From Duganella zoogloeoides (lineage in GTDB: Bacteria; Pseudomonadota; Gammaproteobacteria; Burkholderiales; Burkholderiaceae_D), in contig NZ_CP140152.1 in NCBI RefSeq assembly GCF_034479515.1, positions 3,224,001 through 3,288,000 on the forward strand: 64,000 nt of DNA, given 5' to 3'. Positions 1-14,868 of this stretch are shown here, piece after piece (position 1 is the stretch's first letter; every line of letters starts with the position of its first letter). Made by a program: the position numbers and the translations under genes. The notes below the pieces were generated by a model, which was not told the DNA's origin, made no database searches, and saw only the letters and a program-made list of their open reading frames with translations.

Positions 1-1
1 C

Positions 2-601
2 GCGCCGCTGGCGGCCAACTTCCCGTCCACCAAGCAGGCCAAGCTGCAAGCAACCTACCATTGGGGCATCGTCGCCAACGCGGTCGAACGGCAACTGGCG
101 GTGGAACTGAAAAAAACGCCTACGCGCCCGGTGTTCATCAATATCCCCGCCGAACCTAACCCGTTCCAGCGCGCGCTGGCTACCCAGCTGATCACGGCGC
201 TGGTGAACGACGGCTTCACGGTGGCGCGCGCGCCGGCCGGCGCCCTCAAGATCGACCTCGACGTGCAAGCACTGACCTTTGCCGCCAACCGTCCACAGTA
301 CCGGCGCAACTTCGGCCAGCGCTTCCCGCTGGCGGGCGGCGTCTGGATGGCGCAGGAGCTGACCGCGCCGCATGTGGAAAACGAACCGATCGATCCGCTC
401 GATTCCGAATTTGCGCCCGGCGCCACGCCGCGCACCGAGATCATCGTCACCATTTCGGTGTCGGACCAGTACCGCTACCTGGCGCGCAGCACGTCAGCCT
501 ATTACGTGGCCGATGCCGACTACGCGCTGTACGGCGTGACCGAGCCGGAACCTGAAAACACCAAACTGACGCGCGTATTCAAAGTACGCGGCGACCTGTA
601 A
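2..601 (+). CDS. Conserved hypothetical protein, 5' end missing
   Basis: The reading frame is open from the window edge, so the start and any signal peptide lie upstream. The visible part is about 199 residues. It contains an ATYHWGIVANAV segment and then alternating hydrophobic and charged stretches with no motif I recognise. Its stop codon directly abuts the ATG of the FlgO-type lipoprotein, so the two are almost certainly co-transcribed and translationally coupled. By association it may be an exported partner of that lipoprotein. The coupling is seen; the function is unknown. Confidence 0.7.
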   Translation, partial: APLAANFPSTKQAKLQATYHWGIVANAVERQLAVELKKTPTRPVFINIPAEPNPFQRALATQLITALVNDGFTVARAPAGALKIDLDVQALTFAANRPQYRRNFGQRFPLAGGVWMAQELTAPHVENEPIDPLDSEFAPGATPRTEIIVTISVSDQYRYLARSTSAYYVADADYALYGVTEPEPENTKLTRVFKVRGDL

Positions 602-1156
602 ATGCCGATGACCAAACTGGCTAGCGCCCTCCTGCTCACCCTGCCGCTGCTGCTGTCGGCATGCGCCACCAACAAGGACAAGCAACAGCGCGATTACACC
701 ACCGTCTCGTCCAACCAGTTCATCGAGGCCAACTATAAGGCGGCCGATTCGCTGATGCGCCAGCTGACCGGCAAGCTGGCCAGCGACAAGCCGCTGATCA
801 TGGCCACCCTGGTCAATATCGACGAGCTGGAACAGACCACCACGCTGGGCCGGCTGGTATCGGAACAGCTGTCCACGCGCCTGGCGCAGGGCGGCCTGTC
901 GATGGTGGAAATGAAATTGCGCAGCAATGTCTATCTGAAGCGCAACCAGGGCGAACTGATGCTCACCCGCGAAATCGGCGAAGTGGCCACGGCCCACAAT
1001 GCGCAAGCGATCGTGGTGGGCTCGTATGCCGAGACCAGCGACATGGTGTTCATCAACGTCAAGGTGATTCAGCCGAATACCAATTTCGTGCTGGCCGGGC
1101 AGGACTATGTGCTGGCCAAGGAAGCGGTCGTCCGCTCCATGCTTCAGCGTAATTAA
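602..1156 (+). CDS. FlgO-family outer-membrane lipoprotein
   Basis: A 184-residue lipoprotein precursor. The N-terminus has a basic residue, a leucine-rich hydrophobic core and the lipobox LLLSAC with the acylated Cys at residue 21. The rest matches the FlgO domain: an early segment on small-molecule-like beta strands (LIMATLVNIDELEQ), then LGRLVSEQLSTRL, then AQAIVVGSYAE near residue 135. In Vibrio, FlgO helps outer-membrane stability around the flagellum, but the family is also widespread away from flagellar genes and no flagellar gene is nearby here. Start chosen at 602 because it follows the previous stop with no gap; residue 3 is an alternative Met. Confidence 0.8.
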   Translation: MPMTKLASALLLTLPLLLSACATNKDKQQRDYTTVSSNQFIEANYKAADSLMRQLTGKLASDKPLIMATLVNIDELEQTTTLGRLVSEQLSTRLAQGGLSMVEMKLRSNVYLKRNQGELMLTREIGEVATAHNAQAIVVGSYAETSDMVFINVKVIQPNTNFVLAGQDYVLAKEAVVRSMLQRN

Positions 1157-1196
1157 AGTCAACCCGGATTCCCGCCTGCGCGGCGGTCCAATATTA

Positions 1197-2051
1197 TTAC
1201 AGCAGCAACGGCAATACCTCGACTGCGGACGCTTCCACCTTCAGGCCGATCAGCTCATCGGCCCGCGTCTTGCCCAGGTTGATGGCCGCGATCGGCTTGC
1301 CGGCAGCAGCCGCCAGCTTGCAGAACCGGTAGCCCGAAAACACCATCAGCGACGATCCCACCACCAGCAAGGCATCGGCCTGGTCGGCCAGCGCCAGCGC
1401 GCGCGCCGTGCGCTCTGCGGGAATATTGTCTCCAAAGAAAATAACATCGGGTTGCAGTGCGCCGCCGCACTGCGCGCAGACCGGCATGTGAAAATCCTGG
1501 CCGTTCAGTTCCAGCTCGGCGTCGCCGTCGGGCCGTGCTTCCGGCACCACGCCATCGACCGGTCCGGTGTGGACCATGTGCGGATTCTCGCGCGCCAGCC
1601 AGGCCTGGATTGCATCGCGCGGATGGACCGTGCGGCAATCGAGGCACACCACGCCGTGGATATTGCCATGCAGTTCGATAACCTTCTGGCTGCCGGCGCG
1701 GTAATGCAGGCCATCGACGTTCTGGGTGATGACGGCGTCGATGCGCCCCGCCGCTTCCAGTTCGGCCAGCGCGTAGTGGCCGATATTGGGCGCCGCCTTC
1801 GACATCACCGGCCAGCCGGCCATGCTGCGCGCCCAGTAGCGGCGCTGCACGGCCACGTCGCGGCGGAAGTCTGGCCCCTGGATCGGCGCCCGGCCACGCC
1901 GCACGCCGTCCTTGTCGCGATAATCGGGTATGCCGGACGCTGTGGACAGGCCGGCGCCGGTCAGCACCAGCACGCGGCGGTGCTGGTGTAAAAAGGTCTG
2001 GATCTGGTCGATTTGAGCAGTGAGATCGGGATGGAGGTTCATGGCCGTCAT
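1197..2051 (-). CDS. Sir2-family NAD-dependent protein deacylase (sirtuin)
   Basis: A 284-residue sirtuin, the usual length for a bacterial single-domain enzyme. The NAD-binding motif TGAGLSTASGIPDYR spans residues 31-45, TQNVDGLH spans 109-116, and the catalytic His is in IELHGN at 128. Two zinc Cys pairs are present, CLDC at 136-139 and CAQC at 192-195, followed by a Rossmann segment (ADALLVVGSSLMVF). These enzymes remove acyl groups from lysine using NAD+ as co-substrate. The motif set is closer to SIRT4-like or class II sirtuins than to E. coli CobB; this is inferred by eye. The gene converges on the FlgO-type gene, with about 40 bp between the two stop codons. Confidence 0.93.
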   Translation of the reverse strand: MTAMNLHPDLTAQIDQIQTFLHQHRRVLVLTGAGLSTASGIPDYRDKDGVRRGRAPIQGPDFRRDVAVQRRYWARSMAGWPVMSKAAPNIGHYALAELEAAGRIDAVITQNVDGLHYRAGSQKVIELHGNIHGVVCLDCRTVHPRDAIQAWLARENPHMVHTGPVDGVVPEARPDGDAELELNGQDFHMPVCAQCGGALQPDVIFFGDNIPAERTARALALADQADALLVVGSSLMVFSGYRFCKLAAAAGKPIAAINLGKTRADELIGLKVEASAVEVLPLLL

Positions 2052-2235
2052 GTTAGCACCATGGCGGTCCGACCGTGGCTGGCGGCCGCCGCCGGGCCAC
2101 CATCCCTCCGATGATCAGCGGGTCAACTGCGGCGCATGAAGAAGACCGCGTTTCACCCGCTGTGGGTGCAAACTGACAGGTTACTGACGCTCGTCGAGGC
2201 ACGGGAGACGCGCACCTTGCCGGACTACCTGAATT

Positions 2236-2679
2236 TTACGACTGGGCGCTGTCGCCCCAAAGCAGTCGTTGGCCATCGTGTGTCAATGCATAAACCTTGG
2301 CGGGCCAGATTGCGTCACGAATCTCGGGTTCATGCTTCGAAAAAACGCTGACGCATGCACCAGCGGTCACGATGATCCACTCACGTTGCTTCTCGGTGTA
2401 GCCCAAGCGCACTTCTTCTTCCTTCGCCCAGCCACCATCGAAGACCTCAAGGACGGGATAACCTGAAGGAAAGTCCCCAGACATCCAATACTCCGCTAGC
2501 GGGACTTCGTCCAAAAGCCTAAAGCCATCAACCTGGGAAAATGTAACCTCGACGCCGTCATCCCTGTTGCGGTTTCGAAGGACGCGTATCGACAAGCGGC
2601 CGTCGTAGGAAACCGAGTGGATGTCTGCGCCCCAGTCAAATTGCTCTTGGCATCCAAATGGCCGCGCTTTGATTGGCAT
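2236..2679 (-). CDS. Hypothetical protein at the left end of the small-gene array
   Basis: 147 residues, soluble, no signal peptide and no recognised domain. The frame is open further upstream, but that part is translation of repeat R1. I place the start at MPIKARPF (2679), preceded by an AGAGAC ribosome-binding-like stretch. Trp- and acid-rich C-terminal half. The last codons and the stop lie within a half copy of the array repeat (CTGCTTTGGGGCGAC on the minus strand), so the repeat encodes the C-terminus. AT-richer than the flanking chromosome. The open frame and position are seen; the function is unknown. Confidence 0.55.
   Translation of the reverse strand: MPIKARPFGCQEQFDWGADIHSVSYDGRLSIRVLRNRNRDDGVEVTFSQVDGFRLLDEVPLAEYWMSGDFPSGYPVLEVFDGGWAKEEEVRLGYTEKQREWIIVTAGACVSVFSKHEPEIRDAIWPAKVYALTHDGQRLLWGDSAQS
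2245..2275 (-). repeat. Half copy of array repeat at the left boundary
   Basis: On the minus strand it reads CTGCTTTGGGGCGACAGC, matching the upstream half of the full repeats. The rest of the repeat is absent and base composition returns to high GC to its left, so this marks the edge of the array. Confidence 0.55.
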
Positions 2680-2753
2680 ATATGTCGTCTCTATAAGGCT
2701 TGATGTGCGTGGTACAACGATTATGGAGATACGGCCGGGCAGTCGATGGGCAA

Positions 2754-2858
2754 CGACCGCTCCTGGCCGTTCTCGGCCGGTCAGACCAGCATAGCATGTT
2801 ACCGTTGCGAAAACATCAATGTCTACCCCGACACGCCGTTGTCGTCCCAAAGCTGACA
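2754..2858 (-). repeat. Array repeat R1, full length
   Basis: About 105 bp. Plus strand runs from GACCGCTCCTGGCCGTTC to CGTCCCAAAGCTGAC. Shares most bases with R3 and R11, including GTTGCGAAAACATCA and CCGACACGCCGTTGTCG. The ends form imperfect inverted repeats and GGCCGTTCTCGGCC is a local palindrome. Confidence 0.8.
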
Positions 2859-2880
2859 TCCTCAACAAAAGGCAGTGATC

Positions 2881-3393
2881 TTATGAAACCCATGTCAACC
2901 TTTCTTCGATGACTAGCCATTTGCCGCCGCGCTTTTCTAGCTGGTATACGTGGCCCGATCCATTTTCCGCGCCACGGAAATATCTGCCTGTAATGGCCAT
3001 ACTTGTATCGGTTTTCCAAGTCACTCCCTCTACCGACAGCACTAACCCAGGGCTATTCGAACCCTTCACAACAACACCGTACCCTCTGTTGTAATCACAG
3101 TCGGACCCCTTTCGTACTTTATGACGCCCATCGTTAAGACGTTGGATCAATTCCTGCGGCGGGTCTGATTTGGTTTCTGCGGAAGTGTCAATAAATTCGA
3201 CACAGAAGGTATCGACACCATCTGCAGATGCAAACTCACTACTCGTCAGCTGATAACGAACAACCGCTTCCCTAGCGGCGAGCACGTCCTCGGGCGTACC
3301 AGCTTTTCCAGCAATAAGCAAAAGCGGTGGAAGTGCAAGAAAAAGCGCAAGTGTAATTACAAAGTAGCTGCGCAGCGTTAAAATCGAAAACAT
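2881..3393 (-). CDS. Hypothetical membrane-anchored or secreted protein
   Basis: 170 residues. One hydrophobic segment at about residues 9-29 (FVITLALFLALPPLLLIAG) acts as signal anchor or signal peptide. The remainder is a soluble, probably periplasmic domain with two Cys (TFCVEF and SDCDYN) and a beta-rich C-terminus ending GGKWLVIEERLTWVS, the pattern of proteins that end in a small NTF2- or cystatin-like sheet. I cannot name a family. Flanked by R1 downstream and R2 upstream, on the same strand as all its neighbours in the array. Confidence 0.6.
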   Translation of the reverse strand: MFSILTLRSYFVITLALFLALPPLLLIAGKAGTPEDVLAAREAVVRYQLTSSEFASADGVDTFCVEFIDTSAETKSDPPQELIQRLNDGRHKVRKGSDCDYNRGYGVVVKGSNSPGLVLSVEGVTWKTDTSMAITGRYFRGAENGSGHVYQLEKRGGKWLVIEERLTWVS

Positions 3394-3417
3394 ATGCCCT
3401 GTCTGGAAAAGTGAGCT

Positions 3418-3445
3418 AGCGTCCGCTCCTGGCCGTTATAGGACG
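3418..3445 (-). repeat. Array repeat R2, truncated
   Basis: Only the start-proximal end is present: plus strand GCGTCCGCTCCTGGCCGTTA. It overlaps the stop codon of the gene ending at 3436. On the minus strand it ends AGCGGACGCTAGC. Confidence 0.6.
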
Positions 3446-3963
3446 GTGCCTGAATCCGCCAACACTGAAAATTTCCGCCATCCACCAGGAGGGTCCCACT
3501 CGCCCTCGCCGTCGAATTGTCTGGAGTTTGCGGCATGCAATAGCACTCCGTCAATGCCGAGATTTTTCCGCACCCAAAGCAATTCACCCGTCCTCGAGAA
3601 CGCTAGCGCTTCTGAGGCGGATGTAACGAGTACGGAAAATTTTGTGGGTAGATTTTCAAAATCGCCACCATCGTACATATGGCCAAAATAGCCATCGAGT
3701 TGATGGCTAACTACCGCACCGGCCTTCACGTCTAAAATAAATACATATTGACCAAAGCCGATAAATATGAGGTTGCCTACATATCGAACATCTTGGAAGC
3801 ATGAGTATCCGGCGCTGGATAGCACGTTCACTCGGGTTCGTAAACCGTCACTATCGAAAATGGCAACGCTTGCAGCAACGGCAGTATCAAACTTATCACC
3901 GCCAACAGCAAAGACGCGGTCGTATTGCCCTTCGTCGAATTTGTCTTTGAAATGAATTTCCAT
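3436..3963 (-). CDS. Hypothetical protein, beta-propeller-like repeats
   Basis: 175 residues, no signal peptide. Repeated short strands (NLIFIGFGQYVFILDVKAG, then EALAFSRTGELLWV) look like WD40/PQQ-type blades that report a value, but only two or three blades fit in this length. Similar small proteins occur in accessory regions of many bacteria without known function. The stop codon lies within truncated repeat R2, and the start lies about 20 bp from R3. Start is the ATG at 3963, preceded by an A/T-rich leader with no clear ribosome-binding site. Confidence 0.6.
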   Translation of the reverse strand: MEIHFKDKFDEGQYDRVFAVGGDKFDTAVAASVAIFDSDGLRTRVNVLSSAGYSCFQDVRYVGNLIFIGFGQYVFILDVKAGAVVSHQLDGYFGHMYDGGDFENLPTKFSVLVTSASEALAFSRTGELLWVRKNLGIDGVLLHAANSRQFDGEGEWDPPGGWRKFSVLADSGTVL

Positions 3964-3983
3964 ATTTTAATTTTATAGGTCAC

Positions 3984-4087
3984 GGTCCGCTGCTGGCCGT
4001 TCTCGGCCGGTCGCGCCAACTTACCATGTTGCCGTTGCGAAAACATCATGATCTGCCCCGACATGCCGTTGTCGCCCCTTAGCGGAA
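3984..4087 (-). repeat. Array repeat R3, full length
   Basis: About 104 bp with the same core as R1 and R11. Plus strand starts GGTCCGCTGCTGGCCGTTC and ends CGCCCCTTAGCGGAA. The outer TCCGCT/AGCGGA pair is an exact 6-bp inverted repeat. Confidence 0.8.
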
Positions 4088-4112
4088 GTTCGTCAAAAGA
4101 GACTTTTTTTAA

Positions 4113-4577
4113 TTATTTAAGCGAGTTATTTGTCCCGTGGCTTACCTTTTGCTGGCGCATTATTGACTGAATTTTTTCTGTCAATTCATCCATCTGAAAA
4201 TCTTCAATCACATGCGTGCCACTTGGGTCACCAATACCAGTATCTTTGCGCCCTTTAAATATGATGTAGTTCCACGAGACCGTCATACCTATCCCGCAGT
4301 CGCTACGCCCCAAGCCCGTTGTGAGTGTGATTTCCTTAGATTGCACTCCGCCTTTAATAATCTTTTTTACTTCAAACCGTCCCTGTATCCATGGCCATTT
4401 ACGATGGTTATCGACAGGCATGACTTTCGCCTCACGAAGATTCGCGATGAATATTTCCTCCGCTTTTTCAACCTGCTGCTCAAGTGAAAACACCGGAACC
4501 TTGCAAGCTGATGCATTTAATGTCGCTAACATGAACAGGACAGCCAAAAGGTAATTCTTCATACTTTCTTGCTTCAT
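4113..4577 (-). CDS. Secreted NTR/TIMP-like small protein
   Basis: 154 residues from the ATG at 4577, or 149 from the ATG at 4562. A signal peptide ends at ASA before Cys-Lys-Val, so the mature protein would begin with Cys. It continues with EEIFIANLREAKV, GRFEVKKIIKGG, a TGLGRSDCGIGM segment and YIIFKG. This order (N-terminal Cys, strand, wKG-like motif, second Cys, then a YxxF strand) is that of the netrin/TIMP-like fold seen in bacterial tissue-inhibitor-of-metalloprotease-like proteins. The family call is by eye. AGGAG from repeat R4 sits at Shine-Dalgarno distance from the 4577 ATG. Confidence 0.6.
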   Translation of the reverse strand: MKQESMKNYLLAVLFMLATLNASACKVPVFSLEQQVEKAEEIFIANLREAKVMPVDNHRKWPWIQGRFEVKKIIKGGVQSKEITLTTGLGRSDCGIGMTVSWNYIIFKGRKDTGIGDPSGTHVIEDFQMDELTEKIQSIMRQQKVSHGTNNSLK

Positions 4578-4583
4578 TTAAAG

Positions 4584-4690
4584 GGCTCCTGCTGGCCGAT
4601 GGCGGCCGTCACAATGCTAGGATAGCAGCTTGCCCAGTTGCAAAACTCACCAATTCTCACATTAGACCGAAGTCGCCCCAAAGCGGCCGT
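4584..4690 (-). repeat. Array repeat R4, diverged
   Basis: About 107 bp. The ends are recognisable (CTCCTGCTGGCCGATGGC and AGTCGCCCCAAAGCGGCC on plus) but the middle has drifted. On the minus strand the end supplies AGGAG just upstream of the next gene's start. Confidence 0.65.
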
Positions 4691-4695
4691 ACATA

Positions 4696-4932
4696 TCATT
4701 CTTGATCCGACTTTTTCTGGAAACGATCGCCATCCGGATCCAGATCTCTGTGTTCGCGAACAACTGGAAGTTGAAGTTTGAACCAGAGGTGTCCCATCAT
4801 CTCGGCAAGGCCACGCAAGTGCGCAGTCCGCTCGTCTTCCGGCATTGTGCGAATGACGCTATCGGCTCCATTGAGAGCCTCTCCAATGCCTCTGTAGGCA
4901 TCCATAAGCTTCTGCGCGGTTGAATGGTCCAT
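4696..4932 (-). CDS. Small hypothetical protein, helical
   Basis: 78 residues, predicted almost wholly helical (MDHSTAQKLMDAYRGIGEAL, then DERTAHLRGLAEMMGHLWFK) with a charged tail. No membrane segment or known motif. Small acidic helical proteins of this sort are common as immunity or antitoxin-like cargo, but nothing here proves that. It lies between repeats R4 and R5 and has its own A/T-rich leader, with only a weak ribosome-binding site (TAGGGT). Confidence 0.5.
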   Translation of the reverse strand: MDHSTAQKLMDAYRGIGEALNGADSVIRTMPEDERTAHLRGLAEMMGHLWFKLQLPVVREHRDLDPDGDRFQKKSDQE

Positions 4933-4984
4933 TTTTACCCTAACAATTTTTCTAGTTAATTACTCGACCTGATCCGAAAATCTA

Positions 4985-5040
4985 ACGGCCGCTCTTGGCC
5001 GGTTGCCGTCGATGCGAAATTCCGTCCTTAGCCGCCGGTT
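4985..5040 (-). repeat. Array repeat R5, shortened
   Basis: About 56 bp retaining both ends (plus TAACGGCCGCTCTTGGCCGG and CGTCCTTAGCCGCCGG). The minus strand ends GCGGCCGTTAGAT, the only copy with an exact GTTRRRY-type heptamer. Confidence 0.55.
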
Positions 5041-5069
5041 CCTTCTATGTTGGAATCGCGGTCAGCCCG

Positions 5070-5492
5070 TTAAAGGCTCTTGGTCATGAATACGCGACTG
5101 ATACCCGGCCGGGTGGCAATTTCGCCAAAACTCACCCACCCGTTTTTTTCATAAAAACCAGGGGCCTGAAAACTGATCGTGTAAAGTACCGCAGCGCTGC
5201 ATCCACGATCTCTAGCCTCGTCTTCGAATGCCCTAAGGATTTTTGTCCCGAGTCCAGAACCGCGCAGCGAACTCGGCAGATAGAAAAGGTCGAGAAAAGC
5301 CAGTCCCAAGGAGGTTCTTCCAATAGCGCCTCCCAGCACTTCGTTGCTCGTGGAGTCTCTCACGATTACATTGAGTGTGCGTCGGTCACTCAGGCCAGCG
5401 GCGTGCTCATTAAATTCGTTCAAACCTTTGCCGAGAATTACTTCAAATTCCGAGTCTGCATTCTCGGTGACCACGATTATCTTATCCTCCAA
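5070..5492 (-). CDS. GNAT-family N-acetyltransferase
   Basis: 140 residues, normal for a compact GNAT enzyme that transfers an acetyl group from acetyl-CoA to an unknown amine. The acetyl-CoA pyrophosphate loop is LRGSGLGTKIL near residues 75-85, preceded by the LDLFYLP strand. The C-terminal FYEKNGW motif near residue 115 is typical. Start is a TTG at 5492, since the frame is closed by a stop just upstream and no ATG is available; AAAGG lies at suitable distance. A GTG further in, behind GGAGG, is an alternative. It is one of two GNAT genes in the array, a gene type common as integron cassette cargo. Confidence 0.82.
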   Translation of the reverse strand: MEDKIIVVTENADSEFEVILGKGLNEFNEHAAGLSDRRTLNVIVRDSTSNEVLGGAIGRTSLGLAFLDLFYLPSSLRGSGLGTKILRAFEDEARDRGCSAAVLYTISFQAPGFYEKNGWVSFGEIATRPGISRVFMTKSL

Positions 5493-5592
5493 AGGATACC
5501 TTTCTTATTCCATTGTCTTTATTATCAACATCATTTGTCTGACTGCTCTTGGTCGACATAAGACATATCAGTAAGTACCAAGAAGCGTATAT

Positions 5593-5799
5593 TTAATTTT
5601 TCTTACTAAACCAATAGATCTCAGCTACGACATAGAAGACAATGACAAGAAAAATTCCGAACATGATTTCGACACAGCTTGCCAGGGATATTTGCCCATC
5701 GCGCCAATACATAATTCCAACGTTGATTATGAACACCAAAAAAATCATCCAGAATTGACGTTTCAGAACATCTATTAAAGCGAATTTCATTTTATTCAT
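5593..5799 (-). CDS. Small membrane protein with two transmembrane segments
   Basis: 68 residues. Two hydrophobic helices at about residues 16-31 (FWMIFLVFIINVGIMYW) and 43-62 (IMFGIFLVIVFYVVAEIYWF), joined by a short polar loop, with a basic C-terminal tail SKKN. Orientation by the positive-inside rule is ambiguous. No family recognised. AT-rich codon use unlike the flanking core genes. It lies between R5 and R6 on the common strand of the array. Start taken at the first ATG; residue 4 is an alternative. Confidence 0.5.
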   Translation of the reverse strand: MNKMKFALIDVLKRQFWMIFLVFIINVGIMYWRDGQISLASCVEIMFGIFLVIVFYVVAEIYWFSKKN

Positions 5800-5824
5800 T
5801 TAATTTGACTTTCGATAATTTTTA

Positions 5825-5870
5825 CGTCCGCTACTGGCCGATTTCAGACACCCGCGCGGTCCATCTTTCA
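5825..5870 (-). repeat. Array repeat R6, degenerate
   Basis: Only the start-proximal end is clear (plus GTCCGCTACTGGCCGATT). Downstream, the repeat character fades within about 30 bp. Confidence 0.45.
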
Positions 5871-5956
5871 AAACCTCAAATATTCGCTACTTTTCTTTCG
5901 TTCAGAAATTCAGCATAGAACTCCTCGTGGGAACCGGCGAAATTTGGCATCCCTGG

Positions 5957-6448
5957 TCATGTTAAAATTCCCTTTGGCGCAACATAGCTTGATATCGTCT
6001 TCTCCGGGTGCTCATTCCATGAAACATTGAAGGCAGCGAGCTTGGGAAAAAATTCCATAGATGAATAGCTGGAAATGTTGTCATGCACCCACCAAGCAAG
6101 CGCGCTCCAATTATCTGTCCGTTCGTAGTAAGGAATAAAAGAATTAACTACAATACACGCAGTTGCCCCTATGTTTCCACTTTTTACATCTCTCCTATCC
6201 CATATATGTCTCGCATAATTTGCTTCGTTCCGGGCGCAATTATATTGATTACTATTTTCTGCGCCTTTGGCGTTTACCGCACTTGACCTATAACCGGAAC
6301 GAATACTAATGCGCCCAAACGCTTCTTGAATTGGCTCAAGTACATTTTCACAAAGCTGCTTTCCAGCCAGCACCGCAAGCTCTGGGTCATCTGGTATGTT
6401 AGGTATATTTTCAATCTGTGATATTTCCGAATATAGAAAGTCACGCAT
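5957..6448 (-). CDS. Peptidase M15-like protein with altered metal motif
   Basis: 163 residues, no signal peptide. IRSGYRSSAVNAKG at about residues 48-61 is the hallmark of M15A-type D,D-carboxypeptidase-like folds, where a SxHxxGxAxD zinc motif should follow. Here the region reads ARHIWDRRD and then GATACIVV, so one His is present but the canonical motif is not. The C-terminal half (ALAWWVHDNISSYSSMEF) is strongly patterned and keeps a WVH that could supply another ligand. It could be an inactive or re-purposed peptidase fold. Recognition of the fold is by motif only. Confidence 0.6.
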   Translation of the reverse strand: MRDFLYSEISQIENIPNIPDDPELAVLAGKQLCENVLEPIQEAFGRISIRSGYRSSAVNAKGAENSNQYNCARNEANYARHIWDRRDVKSGNIGATACIVVNSFIPYYERTDNWSALAWWVHDNISSYSSMEFFPKLAAFNVSWNEHPEKTISSYVAPKGILT

Positions 6449-6589
6449 AAAAATGAATTCGACAACCGTATACGACCAAAATCTTCCAGGCTTTTTACGG
6501 ATTTTAGTTTATTCGATTTATTTTCCGTCCCAATAATATTTCCAGTTTTTTAGGCATCACATCAAGGTTCAGTTGGCCGGTGAAGGTCC

Positions 6590-6680
6590 TAACGAACGGC
6601 GGCTTCTGGCCGAACGCGGCCGATGGTGCCAGGATACATCCTGCTCATCCGAGAAGTGCCCGCACTATGACGCCGCAGAC
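6590..6680 (-). repeat. Array repeat R7, diverged
   Basis: About 90 bp. Plus strand GGCGGCTTCTGGCCGAACG at one end; the far end is strongly drifted. The minus strand ends CCGTTCGTTAGGA. It sits in a 288-bp interval that otherwise holds only A/T-rich sequence. Confidence 0.45.
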
Positions 6681-6736
6681 AGAAAAATTCCGACGCGGAT
6701 ATTGCTCTATTGAAATAAGTAAACTTACTCCGGAGA

Positions 6737-7135
6737 TTATGGTACATACACCATGTGAATCTCAATCTTAAATCCGTGACTTGTTTCATTGACACGAGCG
6801 CTCAATAATAAATCACTCGAGCCTTCTTCGTTGGTATACAAATCTACTAGCACATCCCAATGGTTTCCTGTCCATATGCAGACGGAAGAATTCCAGGTCT
6901 CGTCAGGTAGCGATTTCAAAGTTGCGCCATAGTCGCTCAGATAGGATTGAATCTGACTAGCGGCTTCTTCCGAAACAGTATCTACACCGGCCACACCACC
7001 ATGTAAGAGGTAGTCACCCCTAACAAATGCATCTACTATTTGGCAGAAAGCCAGTCTCCATACTGTAGGAATTGGGCGCTCTGACGTCTCATTCTTAATT
7101 GCAGCAACCTCAACATTTAATTTGTTTTCGTTCAT
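6737..7135 (-). CDS. Uncharacterised protein family (DUF7668-like)
   Basis: 132 residues from the ATG at 7135; the longer open frame to 7183 is translation of repeat R8. The body contains PTVWRLAFCQIVDAFVRGDY, a VSEEAASQIQSYLSDYG helix, LPDETWNSSVCIW and GHWDVLVDLYTNEEG. I recognise this arrangement as a family of about 130-residue bacterial proteins, probably the one named DUF7668, though I cannot search to confirm. Soluble, acidic, no known activity. It occurs as an accessory gene in many genomes, consistent with its place in this array. Confidence 0.65.
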   Translation of the reverse strand: MNENKLNVEVAAIKNETSERPIPTVWRLAFCQIVDAFVRGDYLLHGGVAGVDTVSEEAASQIQSYLSDYGATLKSLPDETWNSSVCIWTGNHWDVLVDLYTNEEGSSDLLLSARVNETSHGFKIEIHMVYVP

Positions 7136-7152
7136 TTTGCACCAAAATCTGA

Positions 7153-7203
7153 ATGGCTGCTCCTGGCCGAAGTCAGCCAGCACATGTAAGCTAGACAGCG
7201 GCG
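7153..7203 (-). repeat. Array repeat R8, shortened
   Basis: About 50 bp with plus-strand GGCTGCTCCTGGCCGAAGTC at one end. It contains the stop codon (7191-7193) of the DUF4304-like gene. Confidence 0.45.
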
Positions 7204-7772
7204 CTTTTTACCGCCTTCAAATCATAAATCAAACCAGTAGCGCGGTCTCCGGCAATACTTAGACCATACTCTACTAGCGCAGCCGCAGAGTCGCGACGTC
7301 CTAAAGCCAATGCTGCTCTGGACAAGTGCAGCGCAGCTCGCGCATTTGTGGTCCCCGCGCTGAATTTCTGAATCAGCTGTTCAACACTATCTTCAAAAAT
7401 TGCTGTCCGCAACGTACGCACCCGCCCAAAGAATTCCGACTGCGCCGCATCAATTGCACAGGTCAAATCAAAAACCGATTCGCCTGATAGGCTCCAATGC
7501 CATTCGCTACCAACCCGCATCCTCATGATGCACTCGTGTTCCTTTATCGTAGGCAGAGCAGCATCGCCCTCTGCCGGGACAAATGCAGGTTGTGCCCCCA
7601 GATTCACGAAAAAAACATCTCCATTACGGCTACCTTGGATATTTATAACGAAAACATAGTCGTTTTCAATTTTCCTGAAATTTTGGCCTGAGCCTTTAAA
7701 TCCACGCGCTCTGATGAAGGAACCCAGCTCTTTCTAAACGTCTTTCAATTTTGCTCCTACAGAGATATGGAA
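7191..7772 (-). pseudogene. DUF4304-family gene interrupted by a nonsense codon
   Basis: The frame 7191-7607 can be read from a GTG, but in-frame sequence upstream clearly belongs to the same protein: KELGSFIRARGFKGSG, then NDYVFVINIQGSR and FFVNLGAQPAFVP. That is the N-terminal signature of DUF4304 (helix, GFK, then a VNIQxSR strand and FxVNLG). The in-frame TAG at 7734-7736 falls inside the first helix, between KLKDV and KELGS, and no ATG exists between it and the previous stop at 7773. The 138-residue GTG-initiated product would lack the first third of the domain. A single base change from a Leu codon explains it; a sequencing error would too. Confidence 0.65.
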
Positions 7773-7783
7773 TTAACCAAACT

Positions 7784-7812
7784 ATGACCGCAATTGGCCG
7801 AGAACGGTATCT
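7784..7812 (-). repeat. Array repeat R9, remnant
   Basis: Plus GACCGCAATTGGCCGAGAACGG resembles the conserved end of the full copies. The remainder is not recognisable. Confidence 0.35.
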
Positions 7813-7821
7813 ATTAAGATT

Positions 7822-8157
7822 TCATTGCTCGGCCCAAGTAATATCGGAAGTCCTTGTTTGTTCCGGCAACCAATAAGCGAGGACGTCGAGCGCTTGCTCT
7901 AGTGATATGCCATCAGAAATAAACCCTCGATGCTCATGGACAGTTATTGTAGCTTGACCTTTCGAGTCAACTTCGCAATTGAAGTTTCCGAAGTCAATGC
8001 CTTCGCCAAGACACGCGACAAAAAGTTCGGAACACGGTTTCAAGTTGACTTTTGCAAACTCAAGCACTTGATCGATTTCTCCCAGCCGCTGCGTTAGGCG
8101 GATAGGAGGATTCCCGAAACTCTCGTACTCAATTCTGTAATGGGTGCCAGATCTCAT
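7822..8157 (-). CDS. Imm1-like small protein (possible immunity protein)
   Basis: 111 residues, acidic, cytoplasmic. The C-terminal part has the shape of the Imm1 immunity family: a strand (ATITVHEHRG), then an amphipathic helix (ISLEQALDVLAYWL), then a polar turn with TSDITW, where Imm1 proteins usually have a tG.RP..I.W ending. The middle has one Cys (VACLGEG). Imm1 proteins neutralise polymorphic toxins delivered by contact-dependent systems. No toxin gene is nearby, so an orphan immunity gene is the likely reading if the family call is right. Start is the ATG at 8157. Confidence 0.45.
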   Translation of the reverse strand: MRSGTHYRIEYESFGNPPIRLTQRLGEIDQVLEFAKVNLKPCSELFVACLGEGIDFGNFNCEVDSKGQATITVHEHRGFISDGISLEQALDVLAYWLPEQTRTSDITWAEQ

Positions 8158-8178
8158 TTGCTCAATCTACATTACCAA

Positions 8179-8215
8179 TGTCTGTTCATGGCCGGTAGCC
8201 GCCTCTAAGATGGGA
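8179..8215 (-). repeat. Array repeat R10, remnant
   Basis: Plus TGTCTGTTCATGGCCGGTAG recalls the conserved TCCGCTNNTGGCCG end. Only about 35 bp are recognisable. The minus strand ends ACATTGGTAATG. Confidence 0.35.
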
Positions 8216-8222
8216 AATGACG

Positions 8223-8836
8223 TCACAAGACATCGCTGGAATTGACCATAACCCTCTTCGCCATACTGGTATATGAAAAAAGATGCCCATCTATCTCGAA
8301 CATTTCAGGCACTTCGCCGGTCTTTGTGAAGCCCGACCGCTGGTAAAGGCGAATTGCAGGTTCGTTGACAGACAAGACTTGCAAGTCAATCCACTTCAGT
8401 GTGCCGCTCTTCAATGCCCATTTTTCCGCATATTCAATGAGGCGCTGTCCCAATCCGAATTTTCGAAAGCTGCGGTCAACTCCCATTCCAAGTAAGCAAC
8501 GATGAGCTGCGAATCGGTCCGAATTTGCCGCAGGTCGATATGACCTAATAGCTTTCGACCATGAGTGAATGCTCCCCATAATCGACGCCAGCCTGGCTCT
8601 CCCAGCGGGATATCTAACGCATCCGGAAAAGCTTTCGCCCTTTCTGCCGAAAATACCGATTCAGCATAGGGCAAAGGCTGAAAGTAAACATTTTCGGGTT
8701 TTCCGTTGTCGGCCAGATGGTCATTTAAATACTCAAAAAAAACTTCAAATGCAGAAGATGTAATGGGTTCGATAGCTAAGTCAAGATGATTTATTTGAGT
8801 GGGCGTAGGAATCGAATTTGACGAAGAATTTTGCAT
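8223..8836 (-). pseudogene. GNAT-family N-acetyltransferase, frameshifted
   Basis: Two overlapping frames carry the two halves of one acetyltransferase. From the ATG at 8836 (MQNSSSNSIPT, just past repeat R11) the first frame gives GEPGWRRLWGAFTHGRKLLG and HIDLRQ, then becomes nonsense. The other frame supplies HRCLLGMGVDRSFRKFGLGQ (acetyl-CoA loop RKFGLGQRL), then NEPAIRLYQRSGFTKTG, and ends at 8223. The switch lies around 8505-8530, next to the ATTCGGACCGATTCG stretch. An intact product would be about 200 residues. It is a real frameshift or a sequencing error; either way, no single frame encodes a working enzyme as read. Confidence 0.8.
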
Positions 8837-8848
8837 AGTGTATGGAAA

Positions 8849-8952
8849 GGTCCGCTTGTGGCCGTTCTCGGCCGGTCGCGCGAGCATAGCATGTTGCTGC
8901 TGCGAAAGCATCTCTATCTGCCCCGACACGCCGTTGTTGCCGCAAAGGGTCC
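8849..8952 (-). repeat. Array repeat R11, full length
   Basis: About 104 bp, very close to R1 and R3. Plus starts GGTCCGCTTGTGGCCGTTC and ends GTTGTTGCCGCAAAGGGTC. It is the rightmost copy, 28 bp beyond the stop of the DUF695 gene. Confidence 0.8.
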
Positions 8953-8979
8953 CTGTATCGTAACGGGTCGGAATATTGT

Positions 8980-9501
8980 TCAATCAAGTTGCAACCCATA
9001 ATGCTTGATTGTCGCTTCGTTGGGAAACAAAAATTCTCGGTACGCGGACCAAGATGCATCATCCTTTAAATTCGTGTACGTCTTACATTCTGGGCATCGT
9101 TGACTATAGACATTTTTAACAACCTCCGCGATTCCCTTTACGTTGGACACATAAATGTAGTTCAGCTGTTCAAAGTCATGTGTAAAAGTGCCTGCATGGA
9201 TGCTGGGAGTTTCCGCTGCGATGGCGGCAACCACGGCGCTCGATATCTGATTGAGCCGGTCTAAATCTCCAGCCTCCGGCAAACCCTTTCTTTGAGTAGA
9301 TGTGTACGTTACGCCGGTGACTATGAGGTGCGAGAATCCTTCAACGGGCGCGGTTTTCCGCAGACTCATGTCAAGGCGAATGGAACCCGGTCCCGCGTCG
9401 TATGCACCGAGATAACTCCACCACTCGGCGCTTGCATTTGCCTGCGCGCTTGCGACGACATTGGTGAGAAGCAACGATATTCCAATCAGTATTTTTTTCA
9501 T
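8980..9501 (-). CDS. Secreted DUF695-domain protein
   Basis: 173 residues. Signal peptide MKKILIGISLLLTNVVASAQA with a likely cleavage after ASAQA or ANASA. The mature part fits DUF695: AEWWSYLGAYDAGPGSIRLD, a GFSHLIVTGVTY strand, LPEAGDLDRLNQI, AGTFTHDFEQLNYIYVSN and the characteristic end WSAYREFLFPNEAT. One Cys pair, CPEC, near residue 134. The family function is unknown; periplasmic location is inferred from the signal peptide. It is the first gene to the right of the repeat array, and no repeat copy separates it from its upstream neighbour. Confidence 0.78.
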   Translation of the reverse strand: MKKILIGISLLLTNVVASAQANASAEWWSYLGAYDAGPGSIRLDMSLRKTAPVEGFSHLIVTGVTYTSTQRKGLPEAGDLDRLNQISSAVVAAIAAETPSIHAGTFTHDFEQLNYIYVSNVKGIAEVVKNVYSQRCPECKTYTNLKDDASWSAYREFLFPNEATIKHYGLQLD

Positions 9502-9543
9502 AAATTTCTTAATAATGCCTGGCTTGGTAGATTGACGGTCGAA

Positions 9544-9948
9544 TTAATACTCGTGGACGCTGGCACTGCTCACTATCCATCGATTCCGTGCTTTGAGCAG
9601 CAGCACCGTTCCCGCCATTCCTTCTGGGCGATAGGATATTTCGGCTTTAGCGCCGTTGGAAGTCCGGCCAATCTCGAAGTTTACGGCGTCGGCTCCCGCT
9701 ACGACGACTACCACAGGCCGGTTATAAAGCACCAGGTCTGGCTGGGTAACCGAGTAAGGTGCGGCGATGGTAATCTTGACCGGAAGGCGTCCAGGCATCT
9801 CTGGATGCAGATACTGCGCGACCTTCACGTGGGTCAGTACGGCACCGACGATTTGATGGATGTCTGTCGTCGTGAGCGGCGTCGGGGGAGGTGGCGGCAG
9901 ACTTGAGACACCTGTCGAAGCCGCTAGCAACAAGGCCACTATTCTCAT
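9544..9948 (-). CDS. Hypothetical secreted protein
   Basis: 134 residues. A short signal peptide (MRIVALLLAASTGVSS) is followed by a proline run, then a helix (TTDIHQIVGAVLTHVKV), and beta strands with a central hydrophobic VVVVVAGADAV. It ends GTVLLLKARNRWIVSSASVHEY, the typical last strand pair of a cystatin- or NTF2-like small domain. No catalytic motif. It lies 42 bp upstream of the DUF695 gene on the same strand and may be co-transcribed with it. GC is intermediate between the array and the core genes. Confidence 0.55.
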   Translation of the reverse strand: MRIVALLLAASTGVSSLPPPPPTPLTTTDIHQIVGAVLTHVKVAQYLHPEMPGRLPVKITIAAPYSVTQPDLVLYNRPVVVVVAGADAVNFEIGRTSNGAKAEISYRPEGMAGTVLLLKARNRWIVSSASVHEY

Positions 9949-10018
9949 CGCGCCTCGCTCATGGATTGTTCCGGCCGTCCGGATGGCCTGCTTTCACAAA
10001 TTATCAGCTTTTTAAAAT

Positions 10019-10837
10019 TCATTTCAAAGGCGACTGCTGGTCGAGCACCTGCATGACGGCCGCGACGATGGCGGCCGCATCGCCCTGCTCCACTGTGACC
10101 ACCGGCAGTGCGCCGAACGGCTTGCGCGCGGTGCGCACCTGAGTGGCGCTCACCTCCAGGCTGTCGAGTTCGGAAGCGCGGGCGCGCCAGTAAGTCGGCT
10201 TGCGCAATTGCGCCACCTGGGCCGCTGCCAATGATGGGCCAGTCTCGCCGTTGAAGGCAGCCGCAGGATAAGCGCAGCCTGGTCCGATGCTGCCCTGCTC
10301 GGCCGCCGCCAGGCATCCCAGCGCTGCTTGTAACTGAACGTCGCGTCCGGCCGGCAACGCATCCTCGTGCAGCGCATCGACCAGCACCAGCCCGGTGACG
10401 GCGCCGCGCGAGCGCCAGGCGTACTGCTGCGCCACCAGCGCGCCGAAGCCTACGCCAACGAGCACCAGCGGCGCCTCGATCCTGGCGTTCTTGAGCAGGA
10501 AACCGAGGTCGCGGCTGGCATTGCCGACCGAGGCGGCTCGGATAATGGGATCGCTCGCGCCCATGCCGGCACGGTCGTACACGCAGGCGCGGGTGCGGGC
10601 CGCTACCTGCGGCATTACCGCCGACCAGTCCCAGCCGGCGCGGCCGGCATCCGCTTCGAACAGCACGGTGGGCGAACCCTTGCCGAGGCAATACATATTG
10701 AGCTTGCGCCCACCGACATCGATGCGCACCTGGGCGCCGGCAAAGGCATCCTGACCGGCCGGCGGCGCGGCGTGGGCCGGCGCGGCGGCGAACAGGACGG
10801 AAGTGGCCATGACGGCCGGCAGCAGGATTTTTCTCAT
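10019..10837 (-). CDS. Secreted alpha/beta-hydrolase-fold protein lacking the catalytic serine
   Basis: 272 residues with a clear signal peptide (cleavage near AHAAP, residue 25). Fold landmarks are in order: PTVLFEADAG (oxyanion loop), the W-rich ARTRACVYDRAGMGASDP strand, the nucleophile elbow, then LVLVDALHEDALP. At the elbow the sequence is VGVGFG with Gly at residue 130 where GxSxG requires Ser. The catalytic His expected near the C-terminus is also missing and the protein ends early. It is therefore probably not a hydrolase; it may bind a ligand or be decaying. Expressed, if at all, from the region shared with the divergent sigma-factor operon. Confidence 0.8.
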   Translation of the reverse strand: MRKILLPAVMATSVLFAAAPAHAAPPAGQDAFAGAQVRIDVGGRKLNMYCLGKGSPTVLFEADAGRAGWDWSAVMPQVAARTRACVYDRAGMGASDPIIRAASVGNASRDLGFLLKNARIEAPLVLVGVGFGALVAQQYAWRSRGAVTGLVLVDALHEDALPAGRDVQLQAALGCLAAAEQGSIGPGCAYPAAAFNGETGPSLAAAQVAQLRKPTYWRARASELDSLEVSATQVRTARKPFGALPVVTVEQGDAAAIVAAVMQVLDQQSPLK

Positions 10838-10966
10838 GTTGTCATCTTAATAGTTATGCCTGCCGGGAACAAGGACAGTGCTACCATCGGCCCGTAAAAA
10901 TAATTTCCTGTTTTGTAGAACCATTTGTAGGCGGCAAGGTATCAACGGTAACAAGGAGGATCGCTG

Positions 10967-11551
10967 ATGCAGCATCAACTGGGCCTGTCGACGGGCTCTC
11001 ACAGTGACAACGACGAGAAGTGCTTGCTGGCCAGGGTGGCGGGCGGGGACCGTGCTGCGTTTGAAAAACTATATAAACTGTATTTCTCCCGGCTGACGCG
11101 GTTCGTGGGACGCATGACGCGCAGCAGCCCGCTGATCGAGGAAGTGATCAACGACACCATGCTGGTGGTGTGGCAAAAAGCTGCCACCTTCGATGGCACG
11201 TGCAAGCCCTCGACCTGGGTGTTTGCGATCGCCTACCGCAAGACCCTGAAAGGCCTGCGCGCCAGCGATGAACCATTGGAGTCCGACGCCACGCTGTACG
11301 AAGATGACAGCGGCCTGCAGCCCGAGCAGCATATGCACCGCCAGCAGTTGCAGCAAACCGTGGCGGACGCGCTCGACGCACTGCCGGCGGCGCAGCGCGC
11401 GGTCATGGTGCTGACGTATTATCACGAACTGGCCTACAGCGACATCGCCGACATCGTCGCCTGTCCGGTCAACACGGTCAAAACGCGCATGTTCAACGCG
11501 CGGCAGAAACTGAAGGAAGTGTTGTGGAACGAAAGAGAGAACAACCGATGA
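10967..11551 (+). CDS. ECF-type RNA polymerase sigma factor
   Basis: 194 residues with the two conserved parts of extracytoplasmic-function sigma factors. Region 2 is at about residues 28-90 (AFEKLYKLYFSRLTRFV, then VINDTMLVVWQKAATF and STWVFAIAYRKTL). Region 4 is at about 125-185 (ALDALPAAQRAVMVLTYYHE, then YSDIADIVACPVNTVKTRMF). A strong Shine-Dalgarno, AAGGAGG, lies 7 bases before the ATG. It overlaps the anti-sigma gene by ATGA, so the two should be made in balance. It heads a five-gene unit ending with a subtilase, a porin and a small protein. Confidence 0.93.
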   Translation: MQHQLGLSTGSHSDNDEKCLLARVAGGDRAAFEKLYKLYFSRLTRFVGRMTRSSPLIEEVINDTMLVVWQKAATFDGTCKPSTWVFAIAYRKTLKGLRASDEPLESDATLYEDDSGLQPEQHMHRQQLQQTVADALDALPAAQRAVMVLTYYHELAYSDIADIVACPVNTVKTRMFNARQKLKEVLWNERENNR

Positions 11552-12282
11552 ACGCGGGCGTCTTCAACATCGATGGATCGGGTCCGGAGCACCATGCGGT
11601 GCAAGAACTGTTGCCCTGGTATGCGGCAGACAAGCTGTCGTCCGACGAAAGCGGTCGCGTGGCGCGCCACCTGCAACACTGCATCGCCTGCCGGCGAGAT
11701 CTGGCGCGCGAACGCGCGCTGCTGGCCGCCGCCAATGACGACGACGTACTGCCACCGGGGCTGGACATGGATGCCGCGCTGGCGCGCCTGATGCCGCAAC
11801 TGGGCGCGCAGGATTGCGCCAGCGATACCGACGATGGCAGCCCACCTGCACCGCCAGTCGCCAGCCCTGCCGTCGTGCCGCTGCGTGCCGCGCAGCCGTG
11901 GTGGCGCCGCGCCGCCGCTAACGAGCCGTCGTGGCTGCGCTGGGCGGCCGCAGCCCAGTGCGTGGTGATCGTCGGCATGGCCGCGCTGCTGGCGCGCCCC
12001 GACGCGGCGGACACCGCCAGCCTGCCCGCGTATCACGCTTTGGGCAATGGCGCCGCGCCGTCCGGCGGCAACCTGGTCGTGATATTCGAGCCGGCGACCA
12101 CCGAGCGCGAATTGCGCCGCATCCTGCAACGCCATGGCGCGCGCGTGGTGGATGGCCCGACCGTCACCGATGCCTACCTGCTGCGGGTAGCCGACACCGA
12201 GCGCCAGCGCGCGCTCGAGGCGCTGCGCCACGATCCGGCAGTGCGCCTGGCCGAAGCGCTGGACGAAAACGGTACGCCATGA
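11548..12282 (+). CDS. Zinc-finger anti-sigma factor with periplasmic subtilase-propeptide-like domain
   Basis: 244 residues from the ATG overlapping the sigma stop. Residues 41-48 (HLQHCIAC) form the HxxxCxxC zinc motif of ZAS anti-sigma domains, which cage region 2/4 of the partner sigma. A Pro/Ala linker leads to one transmembrane helix at about 132-154 (AAAAQCVVIVGMAALLA). The periplasmic tail (GNLVVIFEPATTERELR, HGARVVDGPTVTDAYLLRVA, ALRHDPAVRLAEALDE) has the strand-helix-strand pattern of I9-type subtilase propeptides. The next gene is a subtilase, and its start overlaps this stop by ATGA. The domain match is by eye; regulation by that protease is inferred. Confidence 0.85.
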   Translation: MNAGVFNIDGSGPEHHAVQELLPWYAADKLSSDESGRVARHLQHCIACRRDLARERALLAAANDDDVLPPGLDMDAALARLMPQLGAQDCASDTDDGSPPAPPVASPAVVPLRAAQPWWRRAAANEPSWLRWAAAAQCVVIVGMAALLARPDAADTASLPAYHALGNGAAPSGGNLVVIFEPATTERELRRILQRHGARVVDGPTVTDAYLLRVADTERQRALEALRHDPAVRLAEALDENGTP

Positions 12283-13805: not shown

Positions 13806-14497
13806 CCTGGCGCAGACTGGCACTGTTACCTTTCATTGCGGTGCTGGCGCCGTGCGCTTCCGCCCAGCTCGACATTACCGGCAGCGTTGCCGTGCAATCG
13901 GAATACCGTTACCGCGGCCAGAATCCCGGCCAGGGCGGCGCCGTGCCGCAGGCCACCGTCAACATCGATACCGACCGGGGCTGGTACGGCGGCGCCTTTG
14001 CCAGCGCCATGACCATCGGCGATCTCGACGGCTACAAGCTGCAAGGCTACGCCGGCTACGCGCAGCGCCTGCGTGGGGGCGGCAGCTGGGAACTCGGCTG
14101 CAGCCGCATCACCTACACCCAGGCGCACGACAACGACTTCAGCGAATGCTACGGCGGCCTCAGTTTCGAGCGCGGCAGCACCCGGCTCTACTACTCGCCC
14201 AAGTACCTCGGCTACGACGCGCGCGTGCTGTACGGCGAGCTCAACGCCTTTTACCCGGTCCACCCGCGCTTCAACCTGGTGGGCCATATCGGCCTGCTGC
14301 GCAACCTCAGCGGTGGCTACTTCCCCGGCATTCCTGCCTCCTCGCGCTACGACGTCCGGATCGGCATCGGCATCCCGTTCGGCCGCTACACGCTGCAGGT
14401 GGCCCGCGAACACGTGCAGGACGACGGCCGCCGCTACACCATGTACCCGGTGCATCCGCCACGGCAGTGGAGCCTGGGCTTGAGTTATGCGTTCTAG
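13754..14497 (+). CDS. TorF-family putative porin
   Basis: 247 residues from the ATG at 13754, which overlaps the end of the subtilase gene by about 50 bp; an ATG at 13724 would add ten residues. The signal peptide ends near PCASAQ. The mature protein begins LDITGSVAVQSEYRYRGQNP, the hallmark of the TorF/TIGR02001 family, followed by repeated amphipathic strands (GWYGGAFAS, SRLYYSPKYLGYDAR) and a terminal aromatic (LSYAF), as required for assembly by the BAM complex. Likely an outer-membrane barrel of the sigma operon; transported solute unknown. Confidence 0.82.
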   Translation: MQLHLPCSRHPARTRAVTWRRLALLPFIAVLAPCASAQLDITGSVAVQSEYRYRGQNPGQGGAVPQATVNIDTDRGWYGGAFASAMTIGDLDGYKLQGYAGYAQRLRGGGSWELGCSRITYTQAHDNDFSECYGGLSFERGSTRLYYSPKYLGYDARVLYGELNAFYPVHPRFNLVGHIGLLRNLSGGYFPGIPASSRYDVRIGIGIPFGRYTLQVAREHVQDDGRRYTMYPVHPPRQWSLGLSYAF

Positions 14498-14505
14498 GAG
14501 CGGCC

Positions 14506-14838
14506 ATGGCCGGCGCTGACCCGCATCCGCATACGCCGGACGGACGCTACTTCGTGGTCAAGGGCAGGCTGTGGAGGCTGAGCAATCCCGACCTGGCGCC
14601 GGAACGCCGCGAGGCGCTGGTCAAGCAGCTGATGGCGGCGCGGCGCGAAGTCGGCGCCGCGCGCAAGACTGGCGACAAGCAGCGCGAACGCGCAGCGCGT
14701 GCGGCGGTGGATGAAGCCAAGCATGGACTTGGAGAACGGGGCCCCGTGTGGTGGACCGACGGTACGCCGGATTTGAACCGGCACATGGTCAAGAATACTC
14801 CCTATGCGCACTGGTACGCGGAACTTCCGCCCCCGTGA
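14506..14838 (+). CDS. Conserved small cytoplasmic protein of unknown function
   Basis: 110 residues, charged, no signal. DGRYFVVKGRLWRLSNPDL is followed by a helical Arg/Ala-rich stretch (RREALVKQLMAARREV and RERAARAAVDEAKHGLGERG), then VWWTDGTPDLNRHMVKNTPY. I recognise this as a conserved hypothetical family spread in Proteobacteria, with no activity assigned. The ATG lies 9 bases after the porin stop with GGAG in between, so it is probably the last gene of the sigma-factor unit. It has no obvious functional link to the others. Confidence 0.7.
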   Translation: MAGADPHPHTPDGRYFVVKGRLWRLSNPDLAPERREALVKQLMAARREVGAARKTGDKQRERAARAAVDEAKHGLGERGPVWWTDGTPDLNRHMVKNTPYAHWYAELPPP

Positions 14839-14868
14839 GCACGGCAACAATAACAGCACTTTAAAAAA

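Follow-up and report, generated by a model that had tools for sequence, protein, structure and literature searches.

A probable orphan array of integron-like gene cassettes, with a 28-bp core site in two orientations, in Duganella zoogloeoides

The window considered here is a stretch of 64,000 nucleotides from Duganella zoogloeoides (contig NZ_CP140152.1, positions 3,224,001 to 3,288,000), whose genome is a single contig of 6.32 Mb, and the feature in question is an array of about 11 small genes, all on the minus strand, lying at about 2236-8983 of the window with a short repeated site in nearly every gap. An earlier note, made from the letters alone, had proposed at this place a gene-capture system using its own repeat. 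As argued below, the block is probably the orphan array of a cassette system of a tyrosine recombinase, integron-like without being an integron.

Sites, genes and limits of the array

Three forms of the repeat are distinguished, namely R, a core site of about 28 bp standing alone, L, the inverted core, and F, a copy of about 108 bp composed of L, a promoter-like spacer and R. The core is built of GAACGTCCGCTT, an 8-bp centre and then AAGCGGCC; since L and the reversed R consensus agree at 24 of 28 positions (some consensus letters being of low information), they are regarded as one site in two orientations. Scanning the array for the core yielded 11 R and 4 L, two of the R cores being weak (scores 13.4 and 13.8). 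The repeat is not random, as a single copy used as query recovered two others in the window (E 2e-23 and 4e-23); in the minus-strand profile search, the short right-hand pieces gave individually weak matches (E 0.006 to 0.8) and the left-hand piece at 2235-2268 reached E 0.003.

Followed along the minus strand, the array opens with an F copy at 8842-8947 (degenerate L, promoter-like spacer, R core 8850-8866; found, like the other long copies, by profile and core scan), after which comes a GNAT acetyltransferase cassette with a broken reading frame (8223-8838), the unit 8864-8189 of which also occurs at 81% in a second array of the same genome, L016. The weak R core 8180-8196, in the right-hand repeat piece 8172-8203, marks the unit boundary and precedes a small gene without family match (7822-8157). 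Beyond the other weak R core (7786-7802) stand a DUF4304 gene of uncertain start codon (7191-7730), the R core 7155-7171 (right-hand piece 7147-7178), a DUF7668 gene (6737-7134), a shortened repeat at 6592-6673 with its R core at 6598-6614, an M15-like gene (5957-6448), the R core 5826-5842 (right-hand piece 5818-5855), the gene of a small hydrophobic protein, taken from the list of open reading frames (ORFs) and family search (5593-5799), a GNAT acetyltransferase gene (5070-5492) and the R core 4987-5003 (right-hand piece 4978-5013). Small genes without family match then alternate with F copies, i.e. gene 4696-4932, F copy 4576-4689 (L core 4674-4688, R core 4584-4600), gene 4113-4577, F copy 3976-4087 (L core 4073-4087, R core 3985-4001) and gene 3436-3963, over the stop of which lies the R core 3421-3437 (right-hand piece 3415-3447), a unit start common to L016 and to locus L067. 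The gene at 2881-3393 belongs to a cassette occurring in three arrays of two species; it is followed by the F copy 2747-2859 (L core 2843-2857, R core 2755-2771) and by the last array gene (2236-2679), positions 2240-2804 matching locus L068 of genome G075 at 87%. The array terminates with the L core 2253-2267, within the left-hand piece.

Most of what the earlier note had described was recovered: small co-oriented genes, a diverged repeat present in most gaps as near-full, shortened and partial copies, a half copy at the left boundary, and a composition richer in AT than the flanks, the guanine and cytosine (GC) content being mostly 0.38-0.53 in the array vs. 0.60-0.73 immediately outside (500-bp steps). 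Its limits of 2236 and 8983 hold for the array itself, but the block without counterpart at the homologous place in relatives, as delimited by alignment to them, is larger (about 2114-10027) and includes a DUF695 gene (8980-9501) and a further stretch (9544-9948), both placed by gene and family search. Regarding the cargo families it had named, both GNATs, DUF4304 and DUF7668 lie above the Pfam cut-offs, whereas the M15-like match remains slightly below (21.7 vs. 23.2 bits) and the right-hand GNAT is split between frames. These two frames (8411-8983 and 8223-8579) may correspond to a decayed cassette or a sequencing slip. PADLOC gave no match among 10 proteins of the window's cassettes, Rfam gave none at E<=1 in positions 1-12000, and none of the PF00589 matches of this genome falls inside the window.

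Exchange of units and position of the crossover

Among 17 relatives fetched out of the 72 other genomes with the flanking gene, all 17 lack any alignment over 2114-10027 and any repeat nearby. In one of them, G077, the flanks corresponding to window positions 1199-2113 and 10028-12293 are separated by 743 bp. This 743-bp stretch (L075, 981-1725) is other sequence at the homologous place, holding small minus-strand ORFs and no core, and the place itself may be an insertion hotspot.

In 37 alignments touching an array, 83 of 124 unit ends fall within 20 bp of a core, compared with 14.3 (standard deviation 3.6, maximum 26) by chance, i.e. upon random placement in the same arrays in 1000 draws. 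One window unit recurs in another array of the same genome (3435-2752, equivalent to L016 9294-9978, 94%) and in G077 (3435-2829, equivalent to L067 2951-3558, 95%), the flanking genes of G077 being only 86-88% identical to those of the window; another is common at 93% to G129, which belongs to a different genus. In genome G371, a 482-bp unit running from R to R is present twice in one array, non-adjacently, with 99.4% identity. Judging from these sequence comparisons, units of gene plus core are common to different arrays, species and genera, and the gene order is not fixed, two results that support the gene capture proposed at the outset. Besides, the repeat does not occur at random places, as its 20 matches in this genome at E<=1e-6 are confined to a handful of places, with 13 falling in three clusters.

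The crossover was mapped in ungapped windows, on pairs selected for cores at their ends, with random pairs among 279 cores as identity baseline. At 19 unit starts at R, identity before CGGCCA is 0.39-0.43 (background 0.40-0.53) and directly after it 0.84-0.89 (background 0.49-0.66). At nine unit ends at R, it is high before CGGCCA and afterwards 0.56, 0.72 and 0.69 vs. a background of 0.57, 0.66 and 0.49, the last value (positions 9-12) exceeding the baseline with these nine ends, and at nine ends at L, identity continues through the centre and then drops. In the aligned cores, the crossover maps to the centre, as a site-specific exchange in the central spacer would give.

A candidate recombinase and the explanations weighed

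A tyrosine recombinase of about 209 amino acids was found by tblastn among the cores of L041, L066, L141 and L145, as well as in L195 of a distant genome. In L066, L141 and L145, it is divergent to a promoter-like stretch and the first R; the stretch from recombinase start to first R aligns between the three with a mean column identity of 79% and is ordered like the F spacer plus R (GTGA..TTT..GGCAAG.TGGTAT.CT..GGCCG..CGGCCA). In this protein, residues 44-193 match PF00589 (E~1e-18), nothing further being matched; against the IntI model it scores 21 and 23 bits, far under the cut-off of 265. Its closest solved structures by sequence are XerD, XerH and XerA, for the catalytic domain (E 3e-9 to 2e-5), and like them it has an R, K, H, R, H, Y pattern, kept across 12 aligned members, which we take to be the catalytic pattern of tyrosine recombinases; unlike them, it has no N-terminal core-binding domain. 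An R-oriented core lies near the recombinase stop in 8 of the 19 loci with enough sequence, some of them fetched by the site, vs. 1.8% of control windows; in 13 loci fetched by protein only, a core of either orientation is present at -45 to +130 in five, vs. 24 of 780 controls. The family, annotated e.g. as 'tyrosine-type recombinase/integrase', comprises no fewer than 7,999 protein clusters, as well as 438 plasmid records from Alpha-, Beta- and Gammaproteobacteria.

The description of the array as integrase-less stands for this genome but not for relatives, in some of whose arrays a recombinase is present. When three members were compared with all PF00589 loci of the window's genome, the best match (E 2e-6, 27% identity) was the locus of an ordinary Xer-type gene; sites and cassettes being present without the recombinase, the window array is thus an orphan. 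Tyrosine recombinases of other kinds occur near arrays, one near L018 and two at L019, the latter in tandem upstream of the array (12566-14878). Downstream of the recombinase in L219 and L222, compact dyads have the same arms and another centre (TCCGGGGTA or TCGGGGGTA), and are perhaps other site classes.

A cassette would accordingly extend from one R core to the next R core or to an L core. The recombinase, likely the catalytic-domain-only enzyme of about 209 amino acids, would cut and exchange strands in the core centre, so that the cassette would retain, at its start, the strong arm (AGCGGAC..) and acquire the weak one at its end. Exchange may proceed via excised circles, and the F spacer is a putative promoter; in relatives, the enzyme gene divergent to promoter-like stretch and first R would correspond to intI, Pc and attI. 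Arrays would also be spread by IS5-family transposons, as passengers, and by plasmids, and the window array would be an orphan with sites and cassettes only. The enzyme behind such a system is probably a different and very common one, not that of the integron.

Several observations weigh against this explanation. Most array loci are without the recombinase, found in only four of 59; when gene families recurring in the neighbourhood of arrays were sought, it was listed in four genomes and was not the top cluster, the leading ones being a large ORF of sensor type and other genes lying outside. The window of 0 to +150 after the stop, in which 6 of the 13 protein-fetched loci hold a core of either orientation vs. 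17 of 780 controls, was chosen after the positions were seen; the earlier window of -45 to +130 gives 3 of 13 vs. 17 of 780 for the R orientation only, and in seven of the 13, the 150 bp behind the stop contain no core. Not all unit ends are at R, some being at L, and the compared units are partly non-independent, being shared three ways. A single-strand hairpin mechanism as in attC is without support here because no pair covariation was found in repeat or core, pairs being no better than shuffles, a folding result which neither proves nor excludes the use of a folded single strand. Finally, computation has shown where the sites lie, which units are shared and where the crossover falls, that relatives lack the block, that attC and IntI are missing and that the recombinase lies beside cores in some loci; recombination activity at the cores is deduced.

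The repeats might alternatively be expression elements, promoter plus 5'-leader, carried along by ordinary homologous or micro-homologous exchange with no dedicated recombinase; in our reading of its motifs, the F spacer resembles an extended -10 promoter, R precedes genes, and, the cores being the sole conserved stretch, chance exchange would end there too. However, identity steps at CGGCCA, before an almost equally conserved strong arm, at both starts and ends, a core identity of about 28 imperfect bp is short for RecA-type exchange, and a recombinase adjoins the sites in relatives, all of which makes this explanation unlikely. It is quite improbable that R and L serve as terminal inverted repeats for cargo-bearing non-autonomous transposons moved by a DDE transposase, e.g. 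of the IS5 family. Arrays usually run from R to an inverted L and three IS5-family copies hold arrays, but the ends proper to this element (GAGCGCCTAACAAAACC) lie beyond R and L, related copies of about 0.9 kb have no cores between end and gene, and the internal R cores are direct repeats, not expected from elements of that type. Moreover, 8 of 145 family genomes have the element and that of the window lacks it, which makes it a carrier rather than the general engine.

Very little credence can be given to a decayed integron array (CALIN) with drifted attC sites, even if the layout is the same, with small unrelated co-oriented genes each followed by a site. An attC covariance model built on eight congeneric sites gave 49 matches at E<=1 in five integron loci, both strands counted, vs. 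one (E 0.67) in 24 array sources including the window, which has no attC, as the earlier note had suspected of its repeats. In the intI search it had called for, nothing in this genome exceeded the IntI cut-off (best 83 bits, over positions 239-302 only), nor did anything in the array-carrying G003, G020 and G025, against 18 of 60 genomes with an IntI; the site is conserved by sequence and its pairs do not covary. Since both attC and IntI were searched for and not found, the array is not a member of the integron family. With integrons, CALIN included, the system shares a one-direction array of small promoter-poor or unrelated genes with an intergenic site, the existence of orphan arrays, cassettes common to distant hosts and, in three of the loci, a tyrosine recombinase divergent to a promoter-like stretch and first site; it differs by a site conserved by sequence, not fold, a catalytic-domain-only enzyme, an inverted terminal site and the long copies with promoter-like spacer. 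The system works like an integron without being one. A conserved folded repeat was considered and rejected, as the 21 weak pairs predicted by RNAalifold on 10 copies vanish on 45 and shuffles do as well. Ordinary integrons with canonical attC are present at L050-L054 in other congeneric species, the two systems thus coexisting at genus level.

As slight is the probability of a dif-module system driven by host XerC and XerD, whose sites have an 11-6-11 layout. In Acinetobacter plasmids, dif (pdif) modules are flanked by 28-bp dyad sites in inverse orientation and shuffle with no linked recombinase needed (PMC13141974), a likeness to the present arrays, but the window has no dif-like site with up to 3 mismatches, such sequences lie near 5 of 440 cores and near 5 of 440 random places, the site sequence is unrelated, most sites are direct repeats and some loci have their own linked recombinase. 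The genome also contains two Y1 transposase genes, relevant to REP (repetitive extragenic palindromic)/REPIN sequences with RAYT; the best core scores at their loci are at or below the threshold.

Returning to the cassette system of a tyrosine recombinase, that the ~209-amino-acid enzyme performs the exchange is likely. On balance, and with modest confidence, we lean towards a further gene-cassette capture system of Proteobacteria, independent of integrons, in which this recombinase family would shuffle accessory genes, including defence genes, at a 28-bp two-orientation site, the window being an orphan array of it. Neither this site nor this role of the recombinase was found in the literature, of which few subscription papers or preprints were covered. 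If the proposal is true, environmental Proteobacteria move a large class of their accessory genes by cassettes invisible to integron software, a very abundant recombinase family, so far named only 'integrase', gains substrate and function, the core becomes a sequence handle for finding captured genes, defence systems included, and nature has another layout of cassette platform, with divergent recombinase, promoter and site, to set beside integrons. A class of its own would be merited if the enzyme acts on the core; the kind, cassette capture by tyrosine recombinases, is already known.

Vehicles, distribution and anatomy of arrays elsewhere

Arrays lie inside an IS5-family element in G095 (two copies) and G371, in the order end, about 67 bp, R, cargo, L, about 80 bp, transposase, end. 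The two G095 copies share their ends (93 bp at 92% and 900 bp at 94%) and enclose unrelated cargo within R and L; both cores stand at the same positions in two further elements (L162, L165), a third (L164) has L only, and one copy is flanked by TTA on both sides. Such elements resemble known IS5-family transporters in their IS5-type transposase (NF033580) and passenger genes, whereas here the cargo is swapped between fixed R and L within the element. G129 has array copies on two small contigs that may be plasmids, and partial matches occur on plasmids of Janthinobacterium and Massilia.

The 59 array loci had been fetched for carrying the repeat, and 49 of them yielded 54 chains of at least three cores. 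The first core of a chain is R in 38, F in 8 and L in 8, the last L in 31, R in 13, F in 8 and a short form in 2. As for the tie between repeat and small genes, the cores are mostly co-oriented with ORFs, the longest ORF being on the array strand in 198 of 221 gaps, counting those of 200 to 2500 bp in which an ORF takes up at least 40% of the length. R-R spacing has a median of 652 bp, and the mean GC content is 0.517 inside arrays vs. 0.620 outside.

With a 10-copy profile, 16 of 60 genomes matched at E<=1e-3, all 16 within the genus and the window's own genome counted. A 45-copy profile had matches in 60 of the 74 genomes of the genus (E<=1e-6) and, in an order-wide draw of 300 genomes, in five (E<=1e-5), all from the home family. 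When the species collection was scanned for an exact pattern, 15 stretches were found, 13 in genomes named Oxalobacteraceae and two in one metagenome-assembled genome named Burkholderiaceae. The compact core form was matched in 17 of 398 phylum genomes, in seven families beyond the home family, vs. one match seen for the reversed pattern, and by this sequence scan it appears older or wider than the full repeat. Short-hairpin BLAST matches in plasmids and phages were near chance level, with none in E. coli genomes, and virus contigs gave few pattern matches. Co-orientation of arrays with replication was rejected, 27 of the 45 clusters from 11 genomes being so oriented (p 0.23), as was the idea that every solo L is a compact hairpin, a second arm being present in only 16 of 69.

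In L195 (6671-9157) and L198 (6776-7263), both of distant genomes, the genes between R and L are partly opposite to the cores, unlike in Oxalobacteraceae arrays. In L199 of the distant genome G590, a single R-L unit with R at 4617 and L at 6679 holds, among GC-rich neighbours, a two-gene candidate defence system of GC 0.33 (4817-6656), matching the PADLOC candidate defence families PDC-M12A and PDC-M12B. The window's own genome has, just past the L end of the array at L019 (3102-5026; genome positions 5747102-5749026), an AT-rich CBASS-type pair of SMODS/AGS cyclase and SLATT effector. Inside the array of L016 lie an IS110-family transposase gene (10768-11799) and a partial second copy of it (13143-13660).

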